NCBI GenBank assembly: GCA_024998815.1 | Contig: JACEUQ010000001.1 | Location: forward strand, 620,001-684,000 | DNA: 64,000 bases | From: Opitutus sp. | GTDB taxonomy: Bacteria; Verrucomicrobiota; Verrucomicrobiia; Opitutales; Opitutaceae | Direction of reading: 5' to 3' | Shown here: positions 4,075 to 44,039 of the stretch, one piece after another | Layout: each line of letters opens with the position of its first letter | Numbering within the stretch: position 1 is the stretch's first letter | The notes under the pieces: model-generated | Seen by the model: only the letters and a program-made list of their open reading frames with translations | Told to the model about the DNA's origin: nothing | The model's database searches: none | Translations under genes and position numbers: made by a program

Positions 4075-5124
4075 TCAACGGGTTTTTGCCGTGGTGATGG
4101 CCAAGCCATAGGCGCGAACGCCTTGGGCCAAAGCCTCAGCCAAAGCGGCGCGGTAGGCGGGAGCGGCGATCCGGCGGGCTTCGTCGTTGTTGGACAAATA
4201 ACCGGCTTCGATCAGAACCCCTGGACTATCGACCATTCTTAGCACGGCGAAACGGGCCCGCTTAAATCCACGGTCTTCTGCGTGGAGCGCGTCGATGACC
4301 TGGTTGTGCATGTGATAACCCAGAAGAGCATTCCAGGGGTCGTAGCGATTGCCTGGGTTCCGGACGTTGTCGCTGGCATCGCGTTTCGCGCTACTGGTGG
4401 ATCGCTGGTATTGCGGGGTCATCACATAAGTCTCTGAACCACGCACGGTGGGTGAGCCGGCAACTGCGTTAAAATGAATGCTGATGAAGAGGTCGGCGCC
4501 TGCCTTGTTGGCGATCTCGGCGCGTCGGGGCAGCTCGATAAAGCGGTCGTCGGTGCGCGTCATGACTACCTTGTAGCCTTGTTGAACCAAGAGCGCGCGT
4601 AAGCGCATGGCTACGTCGAGAGTGAAAATTTTCTCGTCCAGTTTAAATGCCTTGTTTTGGGTCCCGGTATCCTGGCCGCCATGACCAGCATCAATCGCGA
4701 TTACGCGCAGCGCCGGCGGTGCTGGGCTGGCCACTGAGGACGGACTGAGAAGCGGAAGGAAGAGCTTTTCGGCGTCAATACGGCTGATGTAAATCGTGCC
4801 GTCACGCTCCACCGCAGGTTCACCCATGAGCACGCGCAGTCCGTTGATGTTAACATCGCGTTTATCGTCCTCGAGTTCGATACGGGACACGCTGGATTGC
4901 ATGCGCATCGATTGGCCTCGCTCGATCCACGTCGCTTTTAAGCCGAGACGGGCGAAAAAGGCGCGGGCGTCCAGATAGCTGACACCTGCAACCTGGATGG
5001 TGTTTCCGCTGCCGCTGATGGTCGTTTTGCTCGCTGCGTTGCCAGCCAGAGCGGATGAGCCCATCAACAAAATGAGCGCGGCAAAAGCCGCGCTCATGAG
5101 GGAAGTATGCCGTAACCGAACCAT
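4075..5124 (-). CDS. N-acetylmuramoyl-L-alanine amidase (Amidase_3)
   Basis: A 349-residue exported cell-wall hydrolase. Residues 1-28 form a clear signal peptide ending around SSALA. Residues 35-100 resemble the copper-amine-oxidase/AMIN-like N-terminal domain often found before these enzymes. Residues 135-340 are the zinc amidase domain: the His of DAGHGG, the Glu of DEKIF, the His of SIHFNAV and the catalytic Glu of IEAGYLSN are all present. It should cut the amide bond between N-acetylmuramic acid and the stem peptide in the periplasm during growth or daughter-cell separation. It lies 14 bp downstream of infC on the same strand, so read-through from infC is likely. Confidence 0.9.
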   Translation of the reverse strand: MVRLRHTSLMSAAFAALILLMGSSALAGNAASKTTISGSGNTIQVAGVSYLDARAFFARLGLKATWIERGQSMRMQSSVSRIELEDDKRDVNINGLRVLMGEPAVERDGTIYISRIDAEKLFLPLLSPSSVASPAPPALRVIAIDAGHGGQDTGTQNKAFKLDEKIFTLDVAMRLRALLVQQGYKVVMTRTDDRFIELPRRAEIANKAGADLFISIHFNAVAGSPTVRGSETYVMTPQYQRSTSSAKRDASDNVRNPGNRYDPWNALLGYHMHNQVIDALHAEDRGFKRARFAVLRMVDSPGVLIEAGYLSNNDEARRIAAPAYRAALAEALAQGVRAYGLAITTAKTR

Positions 5125-5138
5125 GCCCGGCTACTGGC

Positions 5139-5822
5139 TCAGGCCTTTGCCGGAACCTCGTCGTCGTTGGACTCTTCGTGTCCGTGGTCGGAACCGGTGT
5201 CGTCGATCGCTTGTTCGTCGGTCTCGAGGGTGTATTTCCGCTTGCGCTTATTTGCGGGTAAGGGAGTCAACATGACGTTGATCTGCTTGCCCATCAGGCG
5301 CGGGGTGGAATCGGGATGGCCCATGCCTTCGAGTTCGGCGAGTGCCTTCATCATGACGCCAAAGCCAATCTCGGTGTGCGCCATTTCGCGGCCGCGGAAC
5401 TTCAGGCGAAGCTTCACCTTGTTGCCGTGATCGAGGAATTCCTCGGCGTGACGGATTTTGGTGAGGAAATCACCGCCTGCGATACGCGGCGTGAACTCGA
5501 TTTCCTTGAGCTTGGTGGCGGTTGTCTTGGCGTGGCTCGCCTTCTTTTGCTCTTCGTAAATGTATTTGCCGAAATCCATGATGCGGCAGACAGGAGGCTT
5601 GGCGGTCGCCGCCATCTCGACGAGGTCGAGATTGAACTGCTGCGCCAAGGCCAAGGCACGCTCAGTCTGCATAATGCCGAGCTGTTTGCCTTCAGGGCTG
5701 ATGACGCGAATTTCGGGCTCTTTGATCCGCGAGTTACGGCGGATGTGTGCAAAAGGGTCGTTGTTACGACGCTGAAAGTAACCGGGGCGGTTGCCGCCCG
5801 AGGAGGGGAACGAGTTGGCCAT
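5139..5822 (-). CDS. infC: Translation initiation factor IF-3
   Basis: A 227-residue IF-3. The N-terminal domain begins at RRNSRIKEPEIRVI, with the linker at about KPPVCRIMDFGKY and the C-terminal domain around LKEIEFTPRIAGGD through KFRGREMAH. IF-3 binds the 30S subunit, prevents premature 50S joining and checks the start codon. It is longer than the usual 180 residues because of an N-terminal basic/Gly leader of about 30 residues and an acidic tail (DDTGSDHGHEESNDDE). I placed the start at the ATG at 5822; an in-frame ATG at 5888 would add 22 residues unlike the family. No clear Shine-Dalgarno sequence is seen. infC genes often use unusual starts, so the exact start is uncertain. Confidence 0.9.
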   Translation of the reverse strand: MANSFPSSGGNRPGYFQRRNNDPFAHIRRNSRIKEPEIRVISPEGKQLGIMQTERALALAQQFNLDLVEMAATAKPPVCRIMDFGKYIYEEQKKASHAKTTATKLKEIEFTPRIAGGDFLTKIRHAEEFLDHGNKVKLRLKFRGREMAHTEIGFGVMMKALAELEGMGHPDSTPRLMGKQINVMLTPLPANKRKRKYTLETDEQAIDDTGSDHGHEESNDDEVPAKA

Positions 5823-5991
5823 CAATAAGGAGGTTGCAGGATTAAAGCGGGTGCAGGTTTCTCCCAAGCTTGGATGGAAGACAATCACGAAGTGATTTTA
5901 TCGGGCAAAGACCCCAGCGGTCCTTTTCCGCCGGAGGTTCACCGCAGCCAAGCAACGACCAGGGAATCTGCGCCATCCACACGCCTTTTGC

Positions 5992-7590
5992 TTACCATAC
6001 CAGCAGGCCGCCGGCGAAGGTCAGGCCGGCGCCGACCGAGCAGAAAATGATTTTATCGTCCGGCTTAAAAATCCCCTCTTCAGCCGCCCAACCCAGCGCC
6101 ATCGAAACGGACGCGCCCGAGGTGTTGCCATACTTGGCAATGGTCACGACAAACTTCTCGAAGGGAATTCCCACGCGCTTGCCCACGGCGCGCAGGATGC
6201 GCTCGTTGGCCTGGTGCGGTACGATCCATGAAATATCCGCCGGCGTGAGGCCGTGACGCGTCATGGCGTTTTCGATCTCGTTGGCGAACGCGATCACTGC
6301 GCTCTTGAAGACAGCTCCGCCGTCCATCTGAAGGAAAAAGTCCCCGCGGTCACTGCCGTCGGCGTTGGGCATGAGCTGGCGAGCCCCGCCGCCGGGACGT
6401 TGAATGGCTTCGAACGCCGCCGCATCACCGGAAAGCGCCATGCGATGCAGTCGGTGGCCACCGGGCGCATCAGTGAGGATGGCCGCACCCGCGCCGTCGC
6501 CAAATAGGAAGGCGGTTTCGTGGTCGTTGGGGTTGGTGATTCGCGAAAGCAGCTCGGCGGTGACAACAATGACGTTTTTGGCGGTGCCGCCACGGATAAA
6601 GGCGCGGCCGACTTCCAGGGCGTAGAGCCATCCGGAGCAGGCGGCGTTGACGTCAAAGGCGAGCGCCTTGTTGCAGCCGAGGTGCTTGGCCAACGCACTC
6701 GCCATCGAGGGCACGGGCTGGTCGGGAATAATGGTGGCGAGAATAATGCCGTCGATCTGCGCCGCAGTCATGCCGGCCTGCGTCAGCGCGTGGTTGACGG
6801 CGATGGCGGCCAGACTGGTCGCCGAGGCGTCGGCGTCGGCGTAGCGGCGCTCTTTGATGCCGGTGAGTTTAAGCATCTCCGCCTCGGTGCGGCCGGGGAA
6901 CGCCTTTAAAATCTCGCTGGTGGCGCGGACGTTCTTGGGCACCGCATAACCGATGCCGGCGATGCAAACGGTCTCGGCGGGGGCCGATGTCGGTGCGCAG
7001 CTTTGGGCGCTGAGCGCTGCGAGTCCCGAAGCGGAAGCTGCGGGGCGGTTGGCGAGATAACGGGTGATGTCGTCGCCTGAGACGCGCCCGCCGGGGCCGG
7101 TGGCCTCGATACCGACGATGCTGGCGGGGTCGAGTCCGGCCTCTTGGGCGAGCTTGGCGGCGCGAGGCGTCCATTGGATGCCTGCTGCCGGGGAGGCGTC
7201 TTTTTGGACGGGCGTAGCAATAACTGCGGGAGACGCAACGGGTGCGACTGCTGCTGCAGGAGCGGACTTCGTGGCGGAAACCGCAGTGGCAACGGGCGTG
7301 GCGGCCCCCGCTTTGACCTGAAGATTTTTAAGTGAAATGTCCGTCGTGCTGATGCGCAGGAACGGCGAGCCGCTGGGCAGGATATCTCCCGCTCGGGCTT
7401 GCACCACCTCGATCACGCCGTCGCAAGGCGCCTCGAACTCGAAAACCGATTTGTCGCTCTCCAACTCAGCGATTTTATCACCCTTGGAAATACGCGCGCC
7501 GGCGGCGACCTTGATATCGATAACAGTGAGTTCGCTGACGGTCGCGCCCATGGAGGGAATCGGCACGTCGATGAGGAAGGTGTCCATCAA
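5992..7590 (-). CDS. Lipoyl domain, E3-binding domain and 3-oxoacyl-ACP synthase III in one chain
   Basis: A 532-residue protein with an unusual domain order. Residues 5-80 are a biotinyl/lipoyl domain with the modification lysine at K47 in ESDKS. Residues 95-137 are an Ala/Pro/Val linker typical of E2 subunits. Residues 140-180 are a peripheral subunit-binding (E3-binding) domain ending GPGGRVSGDDITRYL. Residues 207-532 are a complete FabH-type ketosynthase with C318 in NAACSG, H459 in PHQANERI and N489 in YGNTSGAS. The E2 acyltransferase domain that normally follows such an N-terminus is absent and a condensing enzyme takes its place. An acyl group made on the lipoyl arm by a 2-oxoacid dehydrogenase could be condensed directly with malonyl-ACP, but that is inference. 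A second ATG one codon downstream (7587) is an equal start candidate. Confidence 0.9.
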   Translation of the reverse strand: MMDTFLIDVPIPSMGATVSELTVIDIKVAAGARISKGDKIAELESDKSVFEFEAPCDGVIEVVQARAGDILPSGSPFLRISTTDISLKNLQVKAGAATPVATAVSATKSAPAAAVAPVASPAVIATPVQKDASPAAGIQWTPRAAKLAQEAGLDPASIVGIEATGPGGRVSGDDITRYLANRPAASASGLAALSAQSCAPTSAPAETVCIAGIGYAVPKNVRATSEILKAFPGRTEAEMLKLTGIKERRYADADASATSLAAIAVNHALTQAGMTAAQIDGIILATIIPDQPVPSMASALAKHLGCNKALAFDVNAACSGWLYALEVGRAFIRGGTAKNVIVVTAELLSRITNPNDHETAFLFGDGAGAAILTDAPGGHRLHRMALSGDAAAFEAIQRPGGGARQLMPNADGSDRGDFFLQMDGGAVFKSAVIAFANEIENAMTRHGLTPADISWIVPHQANERILRAVGKRVGIPFEKFVVTIAKYGNTSGASVSMALGWAAEEGIFKPDDKIIFCSVGAGLTFAGGLLVW

Positions 7591-7658
7591 AGTTTTGGTT
7601 TTAGGGTGAGGTTGGCGACGGTCTTGAGACGGTCAAAGGAAGGGCCGGTGCAGACCGC

Positions 7659-8456
7659 TTAAGCGCGGGCGAGTTTCCAGAAGGCGAGGCACTTTGCGAG
7701 GAGCGCTTCGAGTTCGGGGAGCGGCACCATGTTGGGACCGTCTGAGAGGGCGTTGTCTGGATCGGGGTGGGTTTCGAGAAAAAGGCCGTCGGCCCCGGCC
7801 GCGAGGGCGGCGAAAGCGAGCGTGGGCACGAACTCGCGCTGACCACCGCTCTTGCCGCCGGCGGCACCGGGAAGTTGAACGCTGTGGGTGGCGTCGAGAA
7901 TCGTTGGATACCCGTTGCGCGCCATGATCGGGAAGGTGCGCATGTCCACCACCAGATTGTTGTAACCGAAGGTGGCGCCGCGCTCGCATTGCCAGATTTC
8001 GGCGGCACCGCCGTGCTTCAATTTTCCAACCACATGCACCATGTCGTTGGGCGAGAGGAATTGGCCCTTCTTCACGTTGACCACCTTGCCGGTGGCAGCG
8101 GCGGCGAGGAGCAAATCGGTCTGGCGGCAAAGGTAGGCGGGGATCTGAAGGACGTCGCAAACCTCGGCGACCGGGGCGCATTGACCGGCGTCATGGACGT
8201 CGGTCACACAGGGCAGCCCGTAGTCTTTTTTAACCAACGCGTGCAGGGCGAGCCCCTCCTCGAGCCCGGTGCCGCGACCACCGGCGATCGACGTGCGGTT
8301 GGCTTTGTCGAAGGAGCCCTTGAACACCAAGTTGAGCTCGGGGTAACGGACGCGCAGCTCGACGAGTTTCTCGGCCACCGAGCGCACGACCTTCTCGTTT
8401 TCGAGTGAGCAAGGACCGGCGAGAACAAGGAGGCGCTTAGGATCGAAAAGTGGCAT
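7659..8456 (-). CDS. kdsA: 3-deoxy-8-phosphooctulonate synthase
   Basis: A 265-residue protein of standard length. It carries LAGPCSLE near the start, the KGSFDKANR motif with the catalytic lysines, [19 protein letters not shown], the [11 protein letters not shown] segment and the C-terminal [11 protein letters not shown]. The enzyme condenses phosphoenolpyruvate with arabinose 5-phosphate to give Kdo 8-phosphate for the LPS inner core, which shows a Gram-negative envelope. It sits between pyrG and the lipoyl-KAS III fusion on the same strand. The ATG at 8456 puts the conserved [12 protein letters not shown] directly at the N-terminus, as usual. Confidence 0.95.
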
Positions 8457-8465
8457 GGGGGGAGC

Positions 8466-8598
8466 GGAAGTAGCGAGTAGTGAGTAGCGATTAGTGGGGC
8501 AGTAGCGATTGGAGAGTAGCAGGTAGACGGAATCGGAAGCTAAACCGAGTAGTCGGAGTCCGAGCCTATTCGCTACCCGCTAGTCACTACGCGCTACT
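8466..8598. repeat. Inverted repeat H at the pyrG stop codon
   Basis: Units AGTAGCGAGTAGTGAGTAGCG on the left, in part, and CGCTACCCGCTAGTCACTACG on the right make an imperfect hairpin. The pyrG stop codon (8594-8596) lies in the right arm. Confidence 0.65.
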
Positions 8599-10240
8599 TC
8601 TTCTTTTTCTTTGCCTTGGGGGCGGCTTTGGCCGGCTTGGCCTTGGCAGCGGGTTTCATTTTGAGTGCGGCGCCGATGAAGGCGGCGAAGAGCGGGTGAG
8701 CCTTGTTGGGCTTGGACTGGAACTCAGGGTGGAACTGCACCGCGACGAACCACGGGTGATCCTTGAGTTCGACGATCTCGACCAGATTGCGGCGCGGGTT
8801 TATGCCGCTGATGATCATGCCGCCGCGCTGGAGTTGGCCGACGTAGGCGTTGTTAACCTCAAAGCGGTGACGGTGACGCTCGCGCACGTGGGTGGCTTTG
8901 TAGGCCTTGGCGGCGTGGGAACCGGGGGTGAGCGCACACTCGTAGCTGCCCAGTCGCATCGTCGCACCCTTATCGATGACGTTTTTTTGTTCCTCCATGA
9001 TGTTGATCACCGGATGGGGCGCGTTGGCGTCGAACTCGGTGGAGTTGGCCCCCTTCAACTTGAGGACATTGCGGCAGTATTCGATGACCGCGATTTGCAG
9101 GCCGAGGCAGAGACCGTAGTAGGGAATCTTGTTTTCGCGGGCGTATTTAGCCGCCGCGATTTTGCCCTCGGTGCCACGGTCGCCGAAGCCGCCCGGGACG
9201 AGAATGCCGTCGAGCCCCTTGAGAATGTTAAGCCCGTTTTTCTTTTCCAGGTCCTCGGCGTCAATGCGCACGATGTTAACGCGGGTGTTGTTGGCGATGC
9301 CGGCGTGGGTGATGGACTCGTAAACAGATTTGTAGGCGTCCTGGAGCTCGATGTATTTGCCGACTACGCCGATCTTAACCTCGTGGGCGGGGGTTTTGAT
9401 GCGGCGCACGATCTCGGTCCAGATGTTCTTCTCGGGGGCGGGATTTTTGAGCCCGAATAGGTCAACCACCAGATCGTCCATGCGCTCTTTTTGCAGCGCG
9501 AGGGGCAGTTCGTAGATCGAGTCCACATCGCCGCACTCGATCACGGCCTTGACTGGTACGTTGCAGAACATGGAAATTTTGTCGCGCAGGCCGGCCTCAA
9601 GCGGGTGGTCGCAACGGCAGACGAGGATGTCGGGTTGGATGCCGATTTCGCGCAGCTTGGCGACGGACTGCTGGGTGGGCTTAGTCTTAAGTTCCCCTGC
9701 CGCCTTGAGGTAAGGCACGAGGGTAACGTGGATAAAAATGCAGTCGTCCGGCCCGATTTCGAGGGCGAACTGGCGCATCGCTTCGAGAAACGGGAGCCCC
9801 TCGATGTCGCCCGTGGTCCCACCGATCTCAGTGATGAGGATGTCGACATCCTTGCCGCCGGCGTAGATGCGCTCTTTAATCTCGTTGGTGACGTGCGGGA
9901 TGACCTGCACGGTCTTGCCCAAGTAAACGCCGCGACGCTCCTTGGAAATGACGCTCTCATAGACCTGACCTGAGCTCAGGGAGTTGAGTTTGGAGAGTTT
10001 ACCGCTGGTGAAGCGCTCATAGTGGCCGAGGTCGAGATCGGTCTCGGCACCGTCCTCCAGCACATAGACTTCACCGTGCTGAAACGGGCTCATGGTGCCC
10101 GGATCGACGTTAAGGTAAGGGTCGAACTTCTGGATACGCACGGTTAGACCGCGCAGCTCCAAAAGCGCACCGAGTGCGGCAGCCGTGAGGCCTTTGCCCA
10201 ACGACGAGACCACTCCGCCCGTCACGAAGATGTATTTCAT
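8594..10240 (-). CDS. pyrG: CTP synthase
   Basis: A 548-residue enzyme that aminates UTP to CTP with glutamine and ATP. The N-terminal synthetase domain starts [16 protein letters not shown]. The C-terminal class I glutamine amidotransferase has its nucleophile in YGLCLGLQ and the His/Glu pair in VQFHPEF. An upstream in-frame ATG (10288) adds 16 residues outside the family and was rejected. The tail is an Ala/Lys-rich run of about 20 residues ending in five lysines, which is not part of the usual fold. The stop codon lies inside inverted repeat H (8466-8598), so the repeat may have reshaped the C-terminus. Confidence 0.96.
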
Positions 10241-10375
10241 CGGTGAGAAATAGGCGGCGCCGGGAAAGCCTGACAAGCAAAAGCTCACTCCATGTTGAAC
10301 ACAGGCCGCATCTTGGTTTTGGGATACCCCTGGTTGTAGCGGCTGTTAGGCGTGGATACCGTCGGGTAAACACCC

Positions 10376-10457
10376 TGAGCCCAGCTCAAGGCTTCAGGGA
10401 GTAATTTCACAAAGAGTCTGTTCGCAAAGCGTGTGGCCTTGAGCGTGAGCTCAAGGA
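10376..10457. repeat. Repeat B1 upstream of pyrG
   Basis: The right arm is intact (CCTTGAGCGTGAGCTCAAGG) and the left arm is diverged (CCCAGCTCAAGG). The joining part TTCGCAAAGCGTGTGGC matches B3. It lies between rsmE and pyrG. Confidence 0.75.
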
Positions 10458-10480
10458 TTTCGTAAACCTCACCTTGAACG

Positions 10481-11257
10481 CTAATGAGTATTACCAAGGC
10501 TCTTCGCCGCCATTGACTCGTAAGCCAGTACGGCAAGCGCCGCAGTCGCCGCCGTATCACAGCGCAGCACCAGCGGGCCGAGTGTTACTGGGATAAACCC
10601 TGCCGCCAGCGCGTCCTTTACTTCCGTCGCAGAAAAATCCCCCTCAGGGCCGACCAACCACACGGCCGATTCAGGCGTTTGTAAGTGCTTATCTTTAAAC
10701 CCAGCCAGTGCGGCCTTCAGCGACTGCGCGCCCGGATGCAGGCTGGCGATCAACTTGAATTGAGCCGTCCGCACGGTGCTACTGGAGAGGAATTCACCCA
10801 GCGATTGTACTCCGGTGATCTCCGGCAAAAACGGATTCCCGCACTGCTTGGCGGCCTCAAGGGCACCGATGCGCCATTTTTCAACCTTCTTGTCGGAGCG
10901 CTCGCCGTCGAGGTGGACCTGCGTGCGTTCTGTGGTCAGCGGCACGATGCGGGCTGCCCCCAGTTCGGTGGCGTGGCGAATAATGTCCTCCATGACCCCG
11001 CCCTTGGGCAGCGACTGGGCGAGTGTGATAGCACAGGGCAGGGGAGTGCGGGTGTGCGTAGCCGTGACGCGCAGGCTGACGCCGGACTTGCGGGCGTCGG
11101 TGAGTTCGCACGTCCACTCGGTGCCGTAACCGTCGAAGGCGATGACGGTATCGCCCGTGCGGGCACGGTTAACGGTGACCAAGTGATGCGATTCGCCCGC
11201 AGGCAGAATGATGGTGCCGTGGACGGACGCAGGAGCGAAAACACGGAAGTCGGACAT
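10481..11257 (-). CDS. rsmE: 16S rRNA (uracil-1498-N3)-methyltransferase
   Basis: A 258-residue SPOUT-family methyltransferase. It has an N-terminal PUA-like part (RVFAPASVHG, HLVTVNRAR) and a C-terminal trefoil-knot domain with LVGPEGDFSATE and LGPLVLRCDTAA, the SAM-binding knot. It methylates U1498 of 16S rRNA in the 30S subunit. The ATG at 11257 fits the usual N-terminus (MSDFRVFAPA); an in-frame ATG at 11287 would add ten residues. The upstream side faces tRNA-Leu on the opposite strand. Confidence 0.9.
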   Translation of the reverse strand: MSDFRVFAPASVHGTIILPAGESHHLVTVNRARTGDTVIAFDGYGTEWTCELTDARKSGVSLRVTATHTRTPLPCAITLAQSLPKGGVMEDIIRHATELGAARIVPLTTERTQVHLDGERSDKKVEKWRIGALEAAKQCGNPFLPEITGVQSLGEFLSSSTVRTAQFKLIASLHPGAQSLKAALAGFKDKHLQTPESAVWLVGPEGDFSATEVKDALAAGFIPVTLGPLVLRCDTAATAALAVLAYESMAAKSLGNTH

Positions 11258-11333
11258 GGCCGCGAGTGGATCGTTAGAGTTTTCCATTTACAAGCCCGAG
11301 GGTATTCCTAAGTTGCTGCCTCCTTCACGTCCT

Positions 11334-11421
11334 GCCCGGATGGCGAAATTGGTATACGCAGCAGACTCAAAATCTGCCGCCCTCTAAAGGCTTGTCGGTT
11401 CGAGTCCGACTCCGGGCACCA
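11334..11421 (+). tRNA. tRNA-Leu (anticodon CAA), CCA encoded
   Basis: An 88-nt class II tRNA. The acceptor stem GCCCGGA pairs with TCCGGGC (11411-11417), followed by discriminator A and an encoded CCA (11419-11421). The anticodon stem GCAGA/TCTGC encloses a loop with anticodon CAA, reading UUG. A long variable arm and the T-loop GGTTCGAGTCC complete the fold. A short T-run follows directly. Confidence 0.95.
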
Positions 11422-36692: not shown

Positions 36693-37511
36693 ATGTCTGT
36701 CGTCATTAACACCAATTACGCGGCTACGGTCGCTTCGAATAACTTAGCCACGTCCAATAGCATGCTGCAGAAGAGCCTTAACCGGCTTTCTAGCGGCTCG
36801 AAGATCGTTTCCCCTTCTGACGATGCGGGCGGTCTTGCTGTATCCATGAAGCTCAGCGCCACGGCCAAGCGCCAGGGTGCGGTGAACAACAACATCGGCA
36901 ATGCGGTTTCCCTCCTGCAGACGCAGGACGGCGCATTAAAAGTCACCGGCAGCGTCCTGGCCCGCATCAGCGAGCTGAAGGTGCTCAACAGCGATGTCAC
37001 CAAGAGCTCGAGCGACAAGGATAACTATAACACCGAATTTGTGTCACTGCGCGCTCAGTTGACCGCGCTCACCAGTGAGAAGTTCAACGGTATCAGCCTG
37101 TTCGGTACCAGCACCATGGCGATCGCCACCACCGAGGACGCTTCGACCTCCTCCTCGGTCACGGTTGCCGCCCGCGATTTAGGCCATACTTCCTCCGGTG
37201 TCGGCGCCGTCGCCACCACCGCCACCAGCTTGACCGGCCTTCTGCTGACCGATGTCACCACCGCCTTGGAAAATGTCGCCAACATGCGCGCTTCCAACGG
37301 TGCCGAGCAAAGCCGCCTGGGCTTCGCTTCAGAACTGTTGACGATCAACAAGGCCAACCTCGAAGCCGCCACCAGTCGGATCACCGATGTGGATGTGGCT
37401 GAAGAATCTACCAATCTCGCCCGGTGGAATACGCTGGTCTCGGCAGGCACCTCGATGCTGTCGCAGGCCAATCAAAGCGCGCAGACCGCGCTCAAGCTGC
37501 TCCAGGGCTAA
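36693..37511 (+). CDS. Flagellin, first of eight tandem copies
   Basis: A 272-residue flagellin with only the conserved D0/D1 parts. N-terminal residues 1-140 include NRLSSGSKIVSPSDDAGG, C-terminal residues 190-272 include EAATSRITDVDVAEES, and a short Thr/Ser-rich middle (about 140-185) replaces the outer domains. Flagellins are exported by the flagellar type III system and polymerise into the filament. This copy is the most divergent of the eight (start NTNYAATVASNN, segment KVLNSDVTKSSSDKDNYN, extra final Gly). It is the only one with a visible sigma-28-type promoter, so it may lead the array and form the proximal filament. Confidence 0.95.
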   Translation: MSVVINTNYAATVASNNLATSNSMLQKSLNRLSSGSKIVSPSDDAGGLAVSMKLSATAKRQGAVNNNIGNAVSLLQTQDGALKVTGSVLARISELKVLNSDVTKSSSDKDNYNTEFVSLRAQLTALTSEKFNGISLFGTSTMAIATTEDASTSSSVTVAARDLGHTSSGVGAVATTATSLTGLLLTDVTTALENVANMRASNGAEQSRLGFASELLTINKANLEAATSRITDVDVAEESTNLARWNTLVSAGTSMLSQANQSAQTALKLLQG

Positions 37512-37733
37512 TAGTAACCTCCGCGTCCGCCGCCTTCGCTTCCGGCGAGGTCGAGCCGACGGGTGGATAGAGCGGTGGGTTTCCCACCTTGTCGGTTGCC
37601 GTGGGTGGTACCGCCACCCGGCACTATATAAATCCAAAAAAAAGGGCTTTGCCCCTGCATGGCCTGATCCGGACCCCTCCGGTTCCGTGACGACGACGGA
37701 TGTCGTGTAAAACTATCAAGGAAAGATAATCCC
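37512..37733 (+). other. Spacer between flagellins 1 and 2
   Basis: A 222-bp spacer, the only one without repeat A. It has hairpins GGTGGG/CCCACC (37574-37588) and GGGTGG/CCACCC (37603-37619), followed by the shared leader. The second hairpin is followed by an A-rich, not T-rich, stretch, so read-through into flagellin 2 is possible. Confidence 0.55.
37666..37722 (+). promoter_or_regulatory. Flagellin 2 leader: two hairpins and ribosome-binding site
   Basis: Stem 1 pairs GATCCGGA (37666-37673) with TCCGGTTC (37678-37685). Stem 2 pairs CGACG (37691) with TGTCG (37701) around loop ACGGA. AAGGA follows at 37718-37722. Confidence 0.7.
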
Positions 37734-38552
37734 ATGGCTGTTGTATTAAATACCAACTATTCAGCGACGATGGCGGCCAACAACTTGGCCACGTCGAGCT
37801 CGATGTTACAAAAGAGCCTCAACCGGCTCTCCAGCGGTTCAAAAATAGTAAACCCTTCCGACGACGCCGGCGGTCTGGCCGTCGCAATGAAGCTCAGCGC
37901 CACCGCAAAGCGCCAGGGCGCGGTTAATAATAACATAGGTAACGCCGTTTCATTACTGCAAACCCAGGACGGCGCCCTCAAGGTGGCCGGTAATATACTA
38001 GCCCGCATCAGCGAACTGAGAACGCTCAATGATGACGTGACCAAGAGCACCGGCGACAAGGCCAATTATAATACGGAATTCACCGCCCTGCAGTTGCAGC
38101 TCACCGCGATCACTTCGGAAAAGTTCAACGGGGTTTCAATGTTTGGCACCGCTTCAAATATGACGGTCAACGGCACGGAGGATGGTTCCACCAGCAGCCA
38201 GATCGCCATAGCGACCCGTGATTTGGGCAATACAGGCAGCGGCGTGGGGGCGGTTACCGCAGCCGCATCTCTCAGTGCAATCACTTCGGTTACAACCATT
38301 ACCACCGCTTTGGAGAACGTGGCCAACATGCGTGCCACCAACGGCGCTGAACTCAGTCGACTCGGGTTCGCCTCGGAACTTTTGATTATAAACAAAGCCA
38401 ACCTGGAGGCCGCGACAAGTCGGATAACCGACGTGGACGTGGCGGAGGAATCCACCCAGTTGGCACGTTGGAATACGATGGTCTCGGCGGGCACCTCGAT
38501 GCTCTCGCAGGCCAACCAGAGTGCGCAGACCGCACTCAAGTTGTTACAGTAA
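37734..38552 (+). CDS. Flagellin, second copy
   Basis: A 272-residue D0/D1-only flagellin starting NTNYSATMAANN. The middle reads FTALQLQLTAIT then GTASNMTVNGTEDGS, a sequence between the two central types seen in later copies. The rest matches copies 3 and 4 closely. The start is fixed by AAGGA 11 nt upstream. Downstream, repeat A3 carries a T-run in the right position for termination. The same N-terminal VVLNTNYSATMA is shared with copies 3 and 4, so these three form one subgroup. Confidence 0.95.
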   Translation: MAVVLNTNYSATMAANNLATSSSMLQKSLNRLSSGSKIVNPSDDAGGLAVAMKLSATAKRQGAVNNNIGNAVSLLQTQDGALKVAGNILARISELRTLNDDVTKSTGDKANYNTEFTALQLQLTAITSEKFNGVSMFGTASNMTVNGTEDGSTSSQIAIATRDLGNTGSGVGAVTAAASLSAITSVTTITTALENVANMRATNGAELSRLGFASELLIINKANLEAATSRITDVDVAEESTQLARWNTMVSAGTSMLSQANQSAQTALKLLQ

Positions 38553-38566
38553 TCAGGTTTTATACA

Positions 38567-38634
38567 AAAGTAGCGCAGGCTTCCAGCCTGCTGGTTTTAA
38601 ACTTCGGGCAGACTGGAAGTCTGCGCTACTTTTT
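38567..38634 (+). repeat. Two-arm repeat A3, possible terminator of flagellin 2
   Basis: The left arm is GCAGGCTTCCAGCCTGC and the right arm is GCAGACTGGAAGTCTGC, followed by CGCTACTTTTT. Each arm can fold alone as a 7-bp stem; the left arm differs by a paired GC-for-AT change, so its own stem is kept. Confidence 0.85.
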
Positions 38635-38691
38635 CGCACCTCTCGCGTTCAGCGATGATCGCTCCCCCTTATTTTAGATATAATAAAGCCT

Positions 38692-38747
38692 GATCAGGAC
38701 TCCTCCTGATCCGTGACGACGACGGATGTCGTTCAAACCATCAAGGA
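38692..38747 (+). promoter_or_regulatory. Flagellin 3 leader: two hairpins and ribosome-binding site
   Basis: Stem 1 pairs GATCAGGA (38692-38699) with TCCTGATC (38704-38711), a perfect 8-bp pair. Stem 2 is CGACG/TGTCG around ACGGA (38722-38726). AAGGA is at 38743-38747. A TATAAT-like sequence (about 38680) precedes it. Confidence 0.7.
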
Positions 38748-38758
38748 AAGATAATCCC

Positions 38759-39577
38759 ATGGCTGTTGTACTAAATACCAACTATTCAGCGACGATGGCG
38801 GCCAACAATTTGGCCTCCTCCAGTTCAATGTTACAAAAGAGCCTTAACCGGCTCTCCAGCGGTTCCAAAATCGTTAACCCCTCCGATGACGCCGGCGGTC
38901 TGGCCGTCTCGATGAAACTCAGCGCCACCGCCAAGCGACAGGGCGCGGTTAATAATAACATCGGTAACGCGGTTTCACCCCTGCAAACCCAGGACGGCGG
39001 CCTTAAAGTGGCCGGTAGTATTTTGGCCCGCATCAGCGAACTGCGCACCCTCAACGATGACGTCACTAAGAGCACGGGTGACAAGGCCAATTATAATACC
39101 GAGTTCGTTGCCTTATCGGCCCAGTTGACGGCCATTGCCTCGGAAAAGTTCAACGGGGTGTCCATGTTCGGCACCAGTTCGAGTATGACCGTCAACGGCA
39201 CGGAGGACGGCGCAACCACGAGCCAAATTGCCATCGCCGCCCGAGATTTGACACACACCAGCACGGGTGTGGGAGCGGTTACCGCCGCGACCGCACTGAG
39301 TATGATCACCTCGGTGACAACGATCACCACCGCACTGGAAAATGTGGCCAAAATGCGTGCCACCAACGGCTCAGAGCTGAGCCGGCTGGGTTTCGACTCC
39401 GAACTGTTGACGATCAACAAGGCTAATCTGGAGGCGGCGACGAGTCGGATCACCGACGTGGACGTGGCGGAGGAATCCACTCAGCTGGCGAGGTGGAATA
39501 CCATGGTCTCGGCGGGCACCTCAATGCTCTCCCAGGCAAATCAGAGTGCGCAGACCGCACTCAAGTTACTGCAGTAA
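38759..39577 (+). CDS. Flagellin, third copy
   Basis: A 272-residue D0/D1-only flagellin from the ATG at 38759, preceded by AAGGA. An in-frame ATG at 38726 would start inside the leader hairpin loop and was rejected. It carries several changes absent from the other copies: NAVSPLQTQDGGLK (Pro for Leu and Gly for Ala), AKMRATNGSELSRLGFDSELL. The middle is of the VALSAQLTAIASEK/GTSSSMTVNGTEDG type shared with copies 4 and 7. A proline in the long D1 helix might weaken filament packing, so this copy may be less functional. Confidence 0.93.
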   Translation: MAVVLNTNYSATMAANNLASSSSMLQKSLNRLSSGSKIVNPSDDAGGLAVSMKLSATAKRQGAVNNNIGNAVSPLQTQDGGLKVAGSILARISELRTLNDDVTKSTGDKANYNTEFVALSAQLTAIASEKFNGVSMFGTSSSMTVNGTEDGATTSQIAIAARDLTHTSTGVGAVTAATALSMITSVTTITTALENVAKMRATNGSELSRLGFDSELLTINKANLEAATSRITDVDVAEESTQLARWNTMVSAGTSMLSQANQSAQTALKLLQ

Positions 39578-39590
39578 GATTTGGAGATAT

Positions 39591-39658
39591 AAAGTAGCGC
39601 AGGCTTCCAGCCTGCTGGTTTTAAACTTCGGGCAGACTGGAAGTCTGCGCTACTTTTT
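39591..39658 (+). repeat. Two-arm repeat A4, possible terminator of flagellin 3
   Basis: Arms as in A3 (GCAGGCTTCCAGCCTGC, then GCAGACTGGAAGTCTGC), ending CGCTACTTTTT. It is almost identical to A3, including the loop sequence between the arms. Confidence 0.85.
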
Positions 39659-39717
39659 GGCTCTTCTCGCGTTCAGCGATGACCGCTCCCCCTTTTTTCA
39701 TAGATATACCATGGCCT

Positions 39718-39774
39718 GATCTGGACCTCTCCAGATCCGTGGCGACACCGGATGTCGTATTAAAAAATCAAGGA
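39718..39774 (+). promoter_or_regulatory. Flagellin 4 leader: two hairpins and ribosome-binding site
   Basis: Stem 1 pairs GATCTGGA with TCCAGATC (39730-39737). Stem 2 is CGACA (39743) and TGTCG (39753) around loop CCGGA; its closing pair is A-T, where copies 6-8 have G-C. AAGGA is at 39770-39774. Confidence 0.7.
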
Positions 39775-39785
39775 AAGATAATCCC

Positions 39786-40604
39786 ATGGCTGTTGTATTA
39801 AATACCAACTATTCGGCAACGATGGCGTCCAATAATTTGGCGTCCTCCAGTTCAATGCTACAAAAGAGCCTCAACCGGCTCTCGAGCGGTTCCAAAATCG
39901 TAAACCCTTCGGACGACGCCGGCGGTCTGGCTGTCTCGATGAAACTCAGCGCCACGGCAAAACGCCAAGGCGCGGTTAATAATAATATCGGTAATGCGGT
40001 CTCACTCCTTCAAACTCAGGACGGTGCACTTAAAGTCACCGGCAATATTCTGGCCCGTATCAGCGAGCTGCGCACCCTTAACGACGACGTCACCAAGAGC
40101 ACCGGTGACAAAGCCAACTATAATACCGAGTTTGTGGCATTATCGAGCCAGTTGACCGCCATTGCCTCGGAAAAGTTTAACGGGATCGCGCTATTTGGCA
40201 CCAGTTCCGCGCAAACGGTCAATGGTACGGAGGATGCCGCCACCAGTAGTCAAATTTCCGTGGCGGCACGTGATTTATCGCACACCAGCACGGGTGTGGG
40301 CGCGGTTACTGCGGCGACCGCACTGAGCATGATCACCTCGATTTCGACCATTACCACCGCACTGGAAAACGTGGCCAATATGCGAGCCACCAACGGTGCC
40401 GAGCAAAGCCGCCTCAGCTTTGCCTTCGAATTATTGACTATTAATAAGGCCAATTTGGAAGCCGCCACCAGTCGAATCACCGACGTGGATGTGGCGGAGG
40501 AATCCACCCAGTTGGCGAGGTGGAATACGATGGTCTCGGCGGGCACCTCGATGCTCTCGCAGGCCAATCAGAGTGCGCAGACCGCACTCAAACTGCTCCA
40601 GTAA
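39786..40604 (+). CDS. Flagellin, fourth copy
   Basis: A 272-residue D0/D1-only flagellin starting NTNYSATMASNN. The middle (GTSSAQTVNGTEDAAT, ARDLSHTSTGVGAV, ALSMITSIST) belongs to the same central type as copies 3 and 7. It has SFAFELL where most others have GFASELL, a Ser-to-Phe change in the D1 helix. The rest of both termini is standard. The start is set by AAGGA 11 nt upstream, and repeat A5 follows. Confidence 0.94.
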   Translation: MAVVLNTNYSATMASNNLASSSSMLQKSLNRLSSGSKIVNPSDDAGGLAVSMKLSATAKRQGAVNNNIGNAVSLLQTQDGALKVTGNILARISELRTLNDDVTKSTGDKANYNTEFVALSSQLTAIASEKFNGIALFGTSSAQTVNGTEDAATSSQISVAARDLSHTSTGVGAVTAATALSMITSISTITTALENVANMRATNGAEQSRLSFAFELLTINKANLEAATSRITDVDVAEESTQLARWNTMVSAGTSMLSQANQSAQTALKLLQ

Positions 40605-40617
40605 TCTGGTTGTATAT

Positions 40618-40686
40618 AAAAGTAGCGCAGGCTTCCAGCCTGCTGGTTTGTGAATTCAGGCAGACTGGAAGTCTGCGCTACTTTTT
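40618..40686 (+). repeat. Two-arm repeat A5, possible terminator of flagellin 4
   Basis: Left arm GCAGGCTTCCAGCCTGC and right arm GCAGACTGGAAGTCTGC, ending CGCTACTTTTT. The loop between arms has diverged slightly from A3 and A4. Confidence 0.85.
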
Positions 40687-40742
40687 CGCCCACCGCTCAC
40701 GGCGGTGACGGCTCCCCCTTATTTTTAGATAAACCCAGGCCT

Positions 40743-40799
40743 GATCGGGACCTCTCCCAATCCGTGGCGACTCCGGAAGTCGTATAACAAAATCAAGGA
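40743..40799 (+). promoter_or_regulatory. Flagellin 5 leader: two hairpins and ribosome-binding site
   Basis: Stem 1 GATCGGGA (40743) and TCCCAATC (40755) with one C-A mismatch. Stem 2 CGACT (40768) and AGTCG (40778) around CCGGA; the closing pair is T-A, a compensated change. AAGGA is at 40795-40799. Confidence 0.7.
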
Positions 40800-40810
40800 A
40801 AGATACCACC

Positions 40811-41632
40811 ATGTCAGTCGTACTTAATACCAATCAGACCGCAACGATGGCCTCCAACAACTTGGCCACCTCCAGTTCCATGCTGCAAAAGAGCCTCAAC
40901 CGGCTTTCCAGTGGTTCGAAAATAGTTAATCCCTCGGACGATGCTGGCGGTTTGGCCGTCTCCATGAAGCTCAGTGCCACGGCCAAACGTCAGGGCGCGG
41001 TTAATAATAATATCGGTAATGCCGTTTCATTACTACAGACTCAGGATGGCGCCCTGAAGGTTGCGGGCAAGATCCTCGATCGTATCAGCGAGCTGCGCAC
41101 GCTCAACGATGACGTCACTAAGAGCACCGGTGATAAGGCCAACTACAATACCGAGTTTACTGCTCTGCAGAGCCAGTTGACCGCGATCACCTCGGAAAAG
41201 TTTAACGGGATTGCCTTGTTCGGCACCTCAACCAGTACGGTCAACGCAACCGAGGATGCCAGCACCAGCACCCAGATTACGGTTTCGGGGCGCGATCTCG
41301 GTTCTACAACCACAACGGTGGGTGTGGGTAACATCACCGCAGCGGGCTCGCTCAGTGCGATCACCTCGATTGATACGATTAAAAACGCGATCGAGAACGT
41401 CGCGACGATGCGCGCCACCAACGGTGCCGAACAAAGCCGTCTCGGCTTCGCTTCGGAGTTATTAACTGTCAATAAAGCCAACTTGGAGGCGGCGACCAGC
41501 CGAATCACCGACGTTGATGTCGCGGATGAATCCACGCAGTTGGCTCGCTGGAATACGATGGTCTCAGCGGGCACTTCGATGCTTACCCAGGCCAATCAGA
41601 GCTCGCAGACCGCGCTCAAGCTCCTGCAGTAA
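40811..41632 (+). CDS. Flagellin, fifth copy
   Basis: A 273-residue D0/D1-only flagellin and the first of the second subgroup, starting SVVLNTNQTATMASNN, with KVAGKILDRISEL. The middle is FTALQSQLTAIT, GTSTSTVNATEDAST and SGRDLGSTTTT, a type shared with copies 6 and 8. Near the end it reads VADESTQLARW and MLTQANQSSQ where all others have VAEES and MLSQANQSAQ. The leader has AAGGA and an ACCACC before the ATG. Confidence 0.94.
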   Translation: MSVVLNTNQTATMASNNLATSSSMLQKSLNRLSSGSKIVNPSDDAGGLAVSMKLSATAKRQGAVNNNIGNAVSLLQTQDGALKVAGKILDRISELRTLNDDVTKSTGDKANYNTEFTALQSQLTAITSEKFNGIALFGTSTSTVNATEDASTSTQITVSGRDLGSTTTTVGVGNITAAGSLSAITSIDTIKNAIENVATMRATNGAEQSRLGFASELLTVNKANLEAATSRITDVDVADESTQLARWNTMVSAGTSMLTQANQSSQTALKLLQ

Positions 41633-41655
41633 ACTATATATAATGGGTTCGACCG

Positions 41656-41723
41656 AATAGTAGCGCAGGCTTCCAGCCTGCAGGTTTGAGGTCGGAGCAG
41701 ACTGGAAGTCTGCGCTACTTTTT
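41656..41723 (+). repeat. Two-arm repeat A6, possible terminator of flagellin 5
   Basis: Left arm GCAGGCTTCCAGCCTGC, right arm GCAGACTGGAAGTCTGC and CGCTACTTTTT. The loop (AGGTTTGAGGTCGGA) is shared in style with A7 and A8. Confidence 0.85.
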
Positions 41724-41807
41724 CGTGACCCATTAATTTCCTCACTTTCCCAATCCCGCTTTTGGCGGGGCTGGTTCCCACTTTAGGGCTTACGCCCCAA
41801 ACGGTTT

Positions 41808-41868
41808 GATCTGAGCCGCTCCTTTTCAGATCCGAGGCGACGACGGACGTCGCATTTATAATCAAGGA
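41808..41868 (+). promoter_or_regulatory. Flagellin 6 leader: two hairpins and ribosome-binding site
   Basis: Stem 1 GATCTGA (41808) and TCAGATC (41826) with a longer loop. Stem 2 CGACG (41838) and CGTCG (41848) around ACGGA; the closing pair is G-C. AAGGA is at 41864-41868. Confidence 0.7.
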
Positions 41869-41879
41869 AAGATACTACC

Positions 41880-42701
41880 ATGTCAGTCGTACTTAATACT
41901 AATCAGACGGCCACAATGGCCTCCAACAACCTGGCCACCTCCAGTTCGATGCTGCAAAAGAGCCTCAACCGGCTCTCCAGCGGCTCTAAAATTGTTAACC
42001 CCTCCGACGACGCCGGCGGTTTGGCCGTGTCGATGAAACTCAGTGCCACAGCCAAGCGCCAGGGTGCCGTTAATAGTAACATCGGCAATGCGGTCTCACT
42101 GCTGCAAACCCAAGACGGCGCCCTCAAGGTTGCCGGTAAGATCCTCGATCGTATCAGCGAGCTGCGCACGCTCAATGATGACGTGACCAAGAGCACCGGC
42201 GACAAAGCCAACTACAACACCGAGTTTACGGCGTTGCAGAGTCAGCTCACGGCGATCACCTCGGAGAAATTCAACGGCGTGGCCTTGTTCGGCAGCACCA
42301 CCAGCACGGTGTTCGCTACCGAAGATGCCTCCACTAGCAGCCAGATCGTTGTGTCTGGCCGTGACTTGGGGGCCACGGGCAGCGCTGGCGGTATTGGTTC
42401 TGTAACGTCCGCCAGTTCGTTGACCGGCATAGCTGCGATTTCAACCGTGACCACAGCGATCGAAAACGTGGCTACCATGCGCGCTCAGAATGGTGCCGAG
42501 CAGAGCCGGTTAAGCTTCGCCTCTGAACTGTTAACAGTGAACAAGGCGAACCTTGAGGCGGCGACCAGTCGGATCACCGACGTGGACGTGGCGGAGGAAT
42601 CCACGCAGCTGGCGCGTTGGAATACGATGGTCTCTGCGGGCACCTCGATGCTCTCGCAGGCCAACCAGAGTGCGCAGACCGCCCTGCGTCTGCTGCAGTA
42701 A
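41880..42701 (+). CDS. Flagellin, sixth copy
   Basis: A 273-residue D0/D1-only flagellin. The first half is nearly the same as copies 7 and 8 (VNSNIGNAVSLLQ, KILDRISEL). The middle is its own variant: GSTTSTVFATEDASTSSQ, RDLGATGSAGGIGSV, then SLTGIAAIST. It has MRAQNGAEQSRLSFASELL. The leader and about 120 bp upstream are practically identical to those of copy 7, showing a recent duplication of this unit. Confidence 0.94.
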   Translation: MSVVLNTNQTATMASNNLATSSSMLQKSLNRLSSGSKIVNPSDDAGGLAVSMKLSATAKRQGAVNSNIGNAVSLLQTQDGALKVAGKILDRISELRTLNDDVTKSTGDKANYNTEFTALQSQLTAITSEKFNGVALFGSTTSTVFATEDASTSSQIVVSGRDLGATGSAGGIGSVTSASSLTGIAAISTVTTAIENVATMRAQNGAEQSRLSFASELLTVNKANLEAATSRITDVDVAEESTQLARWNTMVSAGTSMLSQANQSAQTALRLLQ

Positions 42702-42731
42702 GTTGGTTCGTTATATAACAGGATCGACCGA

Positions 42732-42797
42732 GAAGTAGCGCAGGCTTCCAGCCTGCAGGTTTGAGGACGGAGCAGACTGGAAGTCTGCGCTACTTTC
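42732..42797 (+). repeat. Two-arm repeat A7, possible terminator of flagellin 6
   Basis: Same arms as A6, but the right arm ends CGCTACTTTCG, so the T-run is only three long and a terminator role is weaker here. Confidence 0.8.
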
Positions 42798-42889
42798 GAG
42801 CGTTCCATACTATTAAATTCACACACCATTTCGTCCCATTCCCATCGGAATCGGGATACCCACTTTAGGGCTTACGCCCCAAACGGTTT

Positions 42890-42950
42890 GATCTGAGCCG
42901 CTCCTTTTCAGATCCGAGGCGACGACGGACGTCGCATTTATAATCAAGGA
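42890..42950 (+). promoter_or_regulatory. Flagellin 7 leader: two hairpins and ribosome-binding site
   Basis: Copy of the flagellin 6 leader: stem 1 GATCTGA/TCAGATC, stem 2 CGACG (42920) and CGTCG (42930) around ACGGA, AAGGA at 42946-42950. Confidence 0.7.
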
Positions 42951-42961
42951 AAGATACTACC

Positions 42962-43780
42962 ATGTCAGTCGTACTTAATACTAATCAGACGGCCACAATG
43001 GCCTCCAACAACTTGGCGACCTCCAGTTCGATGCTGCAAAAGAGCCTCAACCGGCTCTCCAGCGGTTCGAAAATCGTCAATCCCTCGGACGACGCCGGCG
43101 GTTTGGCCGTGTCGATGAAACTCAGTGCCACGGCCAAGCGCCAGGGCGCAGTTAATAGTAACATCGGCAATGCGGTCTCACTGCTGCAAACTCAGGACGG
43201 CGCCCTCAAGGTTGCCGGTAAGATCCTCGATCGTATCAGCGAGCTGCGCACGCTCAATGATGACGTGACCAAGAGCACTGGTGATAAGGCTAACTATAAC
43301 ACCGAATTCGTGGCATTATCCAGTCAGTTGACGGCAATTGCCTCGGAGAAGTTTAACGGTGTAGCGATGTTCGGAACCAGCTCTGGTGCCACGGTCAACG
43401 CAACCGAAGACGCCTCCACTGCCAGCCAGATATCGATTTCGGCTCGTGACTTGACTAGCACCGCTACGGGTATGGGCGCGGTCACCGCAGCCACCGCGCT
43501 GAGTATGATCACGGCGATCTCCACGGTGACAGCCGCGATCGAAAACGTGGCCACCATGCGCGCCTCCAACGGTGCCGAACAAAGCCGTCTCGGCTTCGCC
43601 TCGGAACTGTTGACCGTCAACAAGGCCAATCTGGAGGCCGCGACCAGTCGGATCACCGACGTGGATGTGGCCGAGGAATCGACCCAGTTGGCGCGTTGGA
43701 ATACGATGGTATCGGCGGGTACGTCGATGCTCTCGCAGGCCAATCAGAGTGCGCAGACCGCGTTGCGGCTCCTGCAGTAA
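42962..43780 (+). CDS. Flagellin, seventh copy
   Basis: A 272-residue D0/D1-only flagellin that is a mosaic. Its N-terminal 120 residues match copies 6 and 8 (NTNQTATMASNN, VNSNIGN, KILDRISEL). From FVALSSQLTAIASEK to ATALSMITAIST the middle matches copies 3 and 4. The C-terminus returns to the copy 6/8 form (TAIENV-like AAIENVATMRASNGAEQ, TALRLLQ). This pattern is best explained by gene conversion between neighbours. Start fixed by AAGGA upstream. Confidence 0.94.
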   Translation: MSVVLNTNQTATMASNNLATSSSMLQKSLNRLSSGSKIVNPSDDAGGLAVSMKLSATAKRQGAVNSNIGNAVSLLQTQDGALKVAGKILDRISELRTLNDDVTKSTGDKANYNTEFVALSSQLTAIASEKFNGVAMFGTSSGATVNATEDASTASQISISARDLTSTATGMGAVTAATALSMITAISTVTAAIENVATMRASNGAEQSRLGFASELLTVNKANLEAATSRITDVDVAEESTQLARWNTMVSAGTSMLSQANQSAQTALRLLQ

Positions 43781-43809
43781 GCCGGGTCGTTATATAGTAG
43801 GATACGCCG

Positions 43810-43875: not shown

Positions 43876-43967
43876 CGCCTGTTCTATAATATATAAAACA
43901 CACCTCATTTCGTCCCATTCCTATCAGAATCGGATTGCCAACTTGGAGTTTATACTCCGAACGGTTT

Positions 43968-44028: not shown

Positions 44029-44039
44029 AAGATACTACC

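Follow-up and report, generated by a model that had tools for sequence, protein, structure and literature searches.

What would a lipoyl domain do when the enzyme behind it is a ketosynthase III and not an acyltransferase? The question is raised by one gene in the window (the whole stretch of Opitutus sp. DNA that was analysed, 64,000 nucleotides). A sequence-only reading had seen in this gene the lipoyl and subunit-binding domains of a 2-oxoacid dehydrogenase E2 fused to a complete FabH, and had predicted an E1 partner that loads the lipoyl arm.

An E2-like front is fused to a complete ketosynthase III

The open reading frame at 5992-7590 (minus strand) is uninterrupted and comprises 532 amino acids counted from TTG, the count used for the residue numbers K47, C318, H459 and N489. 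Translation probably begins at ATG 7587, since the equivalent of MDTFLIDVP opens most of the aligned homologues. The features of the locus are as follows.

5992..7587, minus strand: lipoyl / E3-binding / ketosynthase III gene, 531 amino acids from ATG 7587 (frame open from TTG 7590)
7351..7569, minus strand: lipoyl domain, residues 8-80; Pfam PF00364 (Biotin_lipoyl), 48.7 bits, cut-off 22.1; model strands between residues 5 and 82
7450..7452, minus strand: K47 (ESDKS), predicted lipoyl-attachment lysine, invariant in 21/21 aligned members
7183..7305, minus strand: Ala/Pro-rich linker, residues 96-136, pLDDT <50
7066..7170, minus strand: E3 (dihydrolipoyl dehydrogenase)-binding domain, residues 141-175; Pfam PF02817, 29.3 bits, cut-off 23.7; model helices at 142-150 and 172-181
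5995..6972, minus strand: ketosynthase III (FabH-like) domain, residues 207-532; Pfam, NCBIfam, PDB sequence and Foldseek matches
6637..6639, minus strand: catalytic Cys318 (E. coli FabH C112), kept in 49/49 members compared
6214..6216, minus strand: catalytic His459 (E. coli H244), kept in 49/49
6124..6126, minus strand: catalytic Asn489 (E. coli N274), kept in 49/49
7659..8456, minus strand: kdsA-like gene on the same strand, 71 bp away from ATG 7587 (Pfam DAHP_synth_1; identified as kdsA by reading); synteny, outside the enzyme
8594..10288, minus strand: pyrG (CTP synthase, named by reading); synteny only

Pfam placed ACP_syn_III at residues 312-385 (87.5 bits) and ACP_syn_III_C at 444-532 (101.4 bits), with a weak overlapping match to Thiolase_N, and the NCBIfam KAS III model NF006829 spanned residues 207-532 at 307.4 bits (cut-off 249). 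The NCBIfam fabH model TIGR00747 scored the window protein at 280.7 bits, below its cut-off of 292.1, and the ordinary FabH of the same genome at 419.9 bits; some distant lipoyl-linked ketosynthases exceed that cut-off. The acyltransferase core of 2-oxoacid dehydrogenases (PF00198) was absent from the window protein in the Pfam scan. In an AlphaFold2 model (mean pLDDT 79.7) the lipoyl region is rich in beta strands, the E3-binding region shows two helices, and the ketosynthase forms a third part; the linkers between them, residues 96-136 and 185-205, have pLDDT below 50. The model's top Foldseek matches in the PDB are FabH structures (4ryb, TM 0.93 by target length). Among the 60 listed of 91 matched PDB sequences, none spanned both the lipoyl and the ketosynthase parts. 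C318, H459 and N489, like K47, are invariant across the 21 aligned members. The fusion, and the replacement of the acyltransferase by a FabH with its three catalytic residues, are therefore as the sequence-only reading had described them.

That reading had also proposed a search of related genomes, and the architecture was found at full length in 12/12 other congeners examined and in further genera, which rules out an artefact of assembly or fusion. Biotin in place of lipoyl on K47 was ruled out by reading the attachment motif, which is ESDKS/ESAKS or ESAKA, against the biotin attachment motif. A scan of 5000-11400 for promoters and terminators gave no signal clearly over chance. Elsewhere in the window, eight tandem flagellin-like genes lie at 36693-44861 on the plus strand, each of about 272 amino acids and with 79-82% identity to the first gene of the row; Pfam was run on four of them.

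Three arrangements occupy one slot in the Opitutaceae

A lipoyl-linked ketosynthase, whether fused, split or a fragment at a contig edge (as in G023 and G026), was found in 34 of 56 relatives: the window's genome, all 12 other members of its genus, most of the sampled family and one genome from another family (G042). Within a sample of 387 Verrucomicrobiota, to which G042 does not belong and in which the best three lipoyl-ketosynthase and best two E1 candidates were scored per genome, 21 genomes carry it, all from the window's family. Scores in this sample leave a clear gap between lipoyl-ketosynthases (E 1e-180 or better) and ordinary FabH (1.1e-105 or worse).

The slot beside pyrG and kdsA is occupied in three ways. 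Form a is the single fused gene. Form b, seen at ten loci (L054-L057, L135-L138, L140, L141), is an adjacent pair of a lipoyl-E3-binding protein of 155-199 amino acids and a ketosynthase. Form c is a lipoyl-E3-binding protein beside kdsA with no neighbouring ketosynthase, in genomes that carry the orphan E1 described below (14 loci: L139, L290-L302). Both domains were detected by Pfam in each of six stand-alone lipoyl-E3-binding proteins scanned. Across the 37 loci compared, pyrG and kdsA are both upstream in 33 (form c 14/14, form b 10/10, form a 9/13); the exceptions, all of form a, are L145, with pyrG only, and L044, L050 and L053, with neither. The sequence-only reading had foreseen neither the split form nor the genomes that lack a lipoyl-linked ketosynthase. 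One genome, G332, has two full-length lipoyl-ketosynthase copies (G332:C34:20494-22083 and G332:C66:12443-13978).

An E1 gene adjoins the ketosynthase in distant phyla

A shorter lipoyl-plus-ketosynthase form of about 440 amino acids occurs in MAGs named Chitinispirillaceae, Chitinivibrionales, Fibrobacter sp. and Sumerlaeia. It is present in 26 of 150 genomes from the phylum of G426 and is known from Fibrobacterota and one Sumerlaeota genome. The E3-binding domain (PF02817) gave no match in the four distant homologues scanned, and all six that were aligned have a gap at its position.

The 27 distant loci comprise the 26 matches from the 150-genome set and L060. At 26 of them a fused E1 alpha-beta gene lies directly upstream of the ketosynthase gene, with the E1 stop lying between -8 and +4 bp of the closest in-frame start of the ketosynthase; at the remaining locus (L216) the contig begins 22 bases ahead of the match. 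For the first six loci the upstream E1 was identified by reading, with three confirmed by Pfam. A gene resembling a branched-chain aminotransferase (by eye; L063:227-1246) lies about 1 kb upstream of one E1-ketosynthase pair; it was seen at one of 26 distant loci, whose flanks are of unequal length, a rarity that gives the branched-chain reading below no help, and was not used as evidence for it. On the 3' side of the ketosynthase, a RadC-like gene is found at 25/27 loci (L059, L061-L063, L071, L205, L209, L211-L228), probably as a merely conserved gene order.

E1 and the lipoyl-E3-binding unit are inherited together

The window's genome encodes a fused alpha-beta E1 of the same kind at G000:C2:1047407-1049545 (40% identity, E 3.7e-146 to a distant-operon E1), whereas identity to the distant-operon E1 is 31-32% for the E1-beta proteins of its PDH and its third E1 pair. 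This protein contains E1_dh, Transket_pyr and Transketolase_C domains and a GDG...NN stretch that we take to be the thiamine-diphosphate motif. It is an orphan: no E2 was found in the 20 kb around it, where rpiB (named by reading) lies nearby. The third E1 alpha/beta pair (G000:C2:297454-299351; L080) sits inside an apparent surface-glycan cluster (by eye), with no E2 seen alongside.

When E1 was counted at an identity of >=54% in the 56 relatives, 33 had both lipoyl-ketosynthase and E1, 21 had neither, one had the lipoyl-ketosynthase only (G006, 92% complete) and one had E1 only (G027, which retains a lipoyl-E3-binding protein). In the 387-genome sample, E1 is present in 21/21 genomes with a lipoyl-ketosynthase and in 14 more without one; two further matches (36% identity, internal stops) were classed as different. 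A search of 19 genomes recovered a stand-alone lipoyl-E3-binding protein in all 14 E1 genomes in which no lipoyl-ketosynthase was found, and recovered none in the four E1-less family members searched (G071, G318, G021, G022). In those 14 Opitutaceae genomes the acyl group must thus go elsewhere, which counts against the reading favoured below. Three genomes (G024, G332, G353) have E1 and the fusion on one contig at a distance of some 12 to 18 kb; for the most part, however, E1 lies away from the ketosynthase in Opitutaceae, a second point against that reading. Gene content thus appears to make E1 and the lipoyl-E3-binding unit the inseparable pair, with the ketosynthase as their usual, not universal, companion. 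Together with the gene pairing at the distant loci, this co-inheritance supports the predicted E1 partner.

Could this E1 serve a conventional E2? Two genomes with E1 and lipoyl-ketosynthase gave no PF00198 match, namely G042 (96% complete; threshold 1e-20) and G428 (threshold 0.001). G428 is one of six distant hosts; the four others with a full E2 search result gave 1 to 5 PF00198 matches, and in one of these four, G427, the match is only weak. G023 (67% complete) gave no match either and was not counted as evidence. The sequence-only reading had listed separate, normal FabH and E2 genes, combined with a lack of acyl transfer from the lipoyl arm, as an outcome that would refute it. Both kinds of gene do exist in the window's genome, but its two PF00198 genes belong to the PDH and OGDH operons: one adjoins the PDH E1 alpha/beta genes and passes TIGR01349 (460.5 over 445), and the other lies between SucA and Lpd. 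Their presence consequently does not refute the lipoyl-ketosynthase reading.

The ketosynthase keeps its catalytic residues and has lost CoA-site residues

We compared 49 members, made up of 31 fused sequences, 12 "split" rows (the ten true split loci, together with L033 and L052, which a contig end cuts) and six distant ones; the fused set leaves out G011, G019 and G025 (L016, L020, L026), and also L035-L045 and L048 as copies of counted genomes. In E. coli FabH numbering, Arg249, the ACP-docking residue, is conserved along with the Cys-His-Asn triad in 49/49 lipoyl-ketosynthases and in 21/21 ordinary FabH. Alignment to E. coli FabH gave the opposite picture for Thr28, Trp32 and Arg36, which occur in 0/49 lipoyl-ketosynthases and in 21/21 ordinary FabH from relatives. 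The same three residues occur in 0/35 lipoyl-ketosynthases and 37/37 ordinary FabH of a broader, overlapping set (16/21 Verrucomicrobiota FabH; many rows common to the 49-member comparison). According to the part of the FabH literature available to us (PMC4606726), the CoA adenine is sandwiched by Trp32 and Arg151 and hydrogen bonded to Thr28, and Arg36 lies on the pantetheine arm.

At the Trp32 position, Opitutaceae lipoyl-ketosynthases have Glu (one Ala) and distant ones Tyr. Arg151, the other half of the adenine clamp, is mostly His in the Opitutaceae forms and is retained by distant ones (6/6 in the first set, 10/14 in the broader set), which speaks against a lost CoA site there. Three FabH-like paralogues of distant hosts, outside the 37, keep Thr28 in two, Trp32 in one and Arg36 in all three; since two of them have F in place of Trp32, loss of Trp32 alone is not specific. 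The ordinary FabH of three form-c genomes, which have the lipoyl-E3-binding protein alone, retains Thr28, Trp32, Arg36 and Arg151. Phe304 is Val in 49/49 lipoyl-ketosynthases, yet Leu or Val also occurs there in other FabH, and no inference was drawn from it. A link between pocket residue 87 of ordinary FabH and the presence of a lipoyl-ketosynthase was dropped, as the 21 FabH showed no clean pattern. The pattern observed would fit a lipoyl arm that reaches the cysteine with no need of an adenine site, together with a malonyl-ACP that still needs Arg249.

A phylogenetic tree unites the fused, split and distant forms, by their ketosynthase domains, in a single group (support 100/99.8) that is distinct from the ordinary FabH compared. 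Approximately unbiased (AU) tests rejected placing the Opitutaceae lipoyl-ketosynthases with Fibrobacterota FabH (p 5e-6) or with Verrucomicrobiota FabH (0.005), the hypotheses having been picked after a quick tree; long branches meet at the lipoyl-ketosynthase group (treekit warning), and the tree omitted L254, L239, L065, L241, L242 and L104 (long or odd) and rows past nine per group. Separate origins in Opitutaceae and Fibrobacterota were rejected on the single group and the AU tests.

Proposed reaction, substrate and alternatives

We consider it likely that the protein is part of a 2-oxoacid dehydrogenase complex in which the ketosynthase replaces the CoA acyltransferase, and in which acyl-dihydrolipoyl would prime fatty acid synthesis, probably of branched chains. 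A dedicated E1, here the orphan, would decarboxylate a 2-oxo acid and reductively acylate the lipoyl group on K47. The lipoyl arm would then swing to the attached ketosynthase III and acylate C318, with no transfer to CoA, and the ketosynthase would condense the acyl group with malonyl-ACP to 3-oxoacyl-ACP, the first fatty acid intermediate. The cellular E3 (Lpd), which the E3-binding domain would recruit in Opitutaceae, would return dihydrolipoyl to its oxidised state. The net reaction would be 2-oxo acid + malonyl-ACP + NAD+ -> 3-oxoacyl-ACP + 2 CO2 + NADH. The comparative evidence supports the E1 partnership and points towards direct transfer from acyl-lipoyl to ketosynthase; the substrate is the least certain step. 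On balance we also favour, somewhat less firmly, CoA-independent fatty acid priming in Opitutaceae, Fibrobacterota and at least one Sumerlaeota, with the free lipoyl-E3-binding protein of some genera shuttling the acyl-lipoyl group to an acceptor that is not joined to it.

The likeliest substrates would be branched-chain 2-oxo acids derived from Val, Leu and Ile, leading to iso and anteiso fatty acids; they are proposed because of the fatty acids reported for the host groups, which are known at group level for strains not matched to the gene. In the parts of the published descriptions available to us, branched C15:0 is a main fatty acid in several Opitutaceae and in Chitinispirillum (PMC5303756, PMC12193912, PMC4814513). 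Iso-C15:0 makes up 33.3% and 48.6% in two Lacunisphaera species and 9.1% in a third (PMC5303756), Horticoccus has 34.9% iso-C15:0 and 29.0% anteiso, and Rariglobus has 31.1% anteiso (PMC12193912). The same partial sources give anteiso-15:0 for Chitinispirillum and straight chains for Chitinivibrio and Fibrobacter, with odd ones in Fibrobacter (PMC4814513). As far as the corresponding excerpts go, branched fatty acids also occur outside Opitutaceae, in Coraliomargarita (PMC10288369), in Puniceicoccus (PMC12193912) and in Akkermansia, for which a BCKDH-plus-FabH route has been proposed (PMC9328018); this occurrence outside the family weighs against the reading. In its favour we counted that several Opitutaceae have branched C15:0 as a main fatty acid, yet the window's genome has no PF00198 E2 outside its PDH and OGDH operons.

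Were the E1 of this same complex to use pyruvate or 2-oxobutyrate, direct transfer from acetyl- or propionyl-lipoyl would prime straight chains, even or odd. The top NCBIfam names for the E1 are pyruvate dehydrogenase, every score being far under cut-off, so either substrate could be used; the E1-beta half is closer to PDH E1 beta (1.1e-61) than to 2-oxoisovalerate E1 (7.3e-54), and Fibrobacter makes odd straight chains (PMC4814513, in the part available). The alpha half gives a mixed comparison: its match to the bacterial 2-oxoisovalerate E1 alpha 1qs0 is weak (1.2e-11), but the branched-chain E1 alpha of human (1dtw, 4.9e-27) scores above PDH E1 alpha (1w85, 1.6e-19). Moreover, the window's genome already has a PDH operon, acetyl priming is already covered by the ordinary FabH present there and in 12/12 distant hosts tested, and iso or anteiso C15:0 is a main fatty acid in several host families (same partial sources: PMC5303756, PMC12193912, PMC4814513). 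We regard straight-chain priming as rather unlikely. A specialised ketide (a pigment, signal or storage lipid) made from an unusual 2-oxo acid, and not a membrane fatty acid, would be in keeping with the KAS III-type enzymes of polyketide and quinolone pathways among the PDB matches (1mzj, PqsC). The conserved housekeeping setting, with pyrG and kdsA adjoining 33/37 Opitutaceae loci and housekeeping neighbours in the window too, suits core lipid synthesis instead and makes such a product very improbable.

The remaining alternatives concern the lipoyl unit itself. If the lipoyl-E3-binding protein were a general acyl carrier from E1 to several acceptors, its fusion to a ketosynthase would be mere co-localisation. 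That the fused gene, the split pair and the form lacking a ketosynthase share one syntenic locus agrees with this, as does the retention of the carrier in 14/14 E1 genomes without a detected lipoyl-ketosynthase, but co-localisation alone explains neither the 26/27 distant E1-ketosynthase pairs nor the loss of Thr28, Trp32 and Arg36, and we find this account quite unlikely. To a decorative or regulatory lipoyl domain, with a ketosynthase that takes acyl-CoA or acyl-ACP and an E1 that serves the PDH or OGDH E2, we give hardly any credence. The usual Cys-His-Asn ketosynthase fold, the other E2s in most genomes and the variable Trp32 of distant-host FabH-like paralogues (F in 2/3) are compatible with it; set against these are the invariance of K47 (21/21), the E1 adjacency (26/27), the G042 and G428 hosts with no PF00198 match, and the three missing CoA-site residues. 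Direct priming from acyl-lipoyl, probably of branched chains, remains the reading we consider likely.

Relation to known systems

The architecture is real, recurs in distant phyla and is linked to an E1. Among the PMC articles listed by the literature searches, covered at the level of titles and the starts of abstracts and with subscription papers and preprints outside their scope, no lipoyl-ketosynthase fusion was found described, in line with the sequence-only view that no enzyme of this design had been reported. If the proposed function is correct, a 2-oxoacid dehydrogenase complex would yield a C-C bond and not acyl-CoA, giving fatty acid synthesis a CoA-free start. It could explain branched fatty acids in bacteria such as this one, with no visible branched-chain E2, would be a natural channelling device for branched starters and would make membrane lipid type predictable from genome content. 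A handful of purified proteins would suffice for a direct test.

Like the E2 of PDH, BCKDH and OGDH, the protein has a lipoyl domain, an Ala/Pro linker, an E3-binding domain and, by gene pairing, an E1; unlike them, it has a ketosynthase III where the PF00198 core sits, and no acyl-CoA product is expected. With FabH and other KAS III enzymes it shares the fold, the Cys-His-Asn triad and Arg249, but Thr28, Trp32 and Arg36 are lost, a lipoyl unit is fused or adjacent, an E1 is paired with it, and it falls in a separate group. Branched-chain priming in Bacillus proceeds from the BCKDH complex through branched acyl-CoA to FabH. The expected input (a branched 2-oxo acid) and output (3-oxoacyl-ACP) are alike in the two routes, but the one proposed here has no E2 acyltransferase and would bypass free acyl-CoA. 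The H protein of glycine cleavage is a lipoyl protein that is not an E2, and we know of no ketosynthase partner forming C-C bonds for it or for LbpA. LbpA of sulfur oxidation is likewise a non-E2 lipoyl protein, according to the part of its description available (PMC6067878), and both are carriers outside an E2 core, as is the stand-alone form here. The lipoyl-ketosynthase looks E2-like up to the acyl-lipoyl stage and FabH-like after it, and departs from each in one defining feature.
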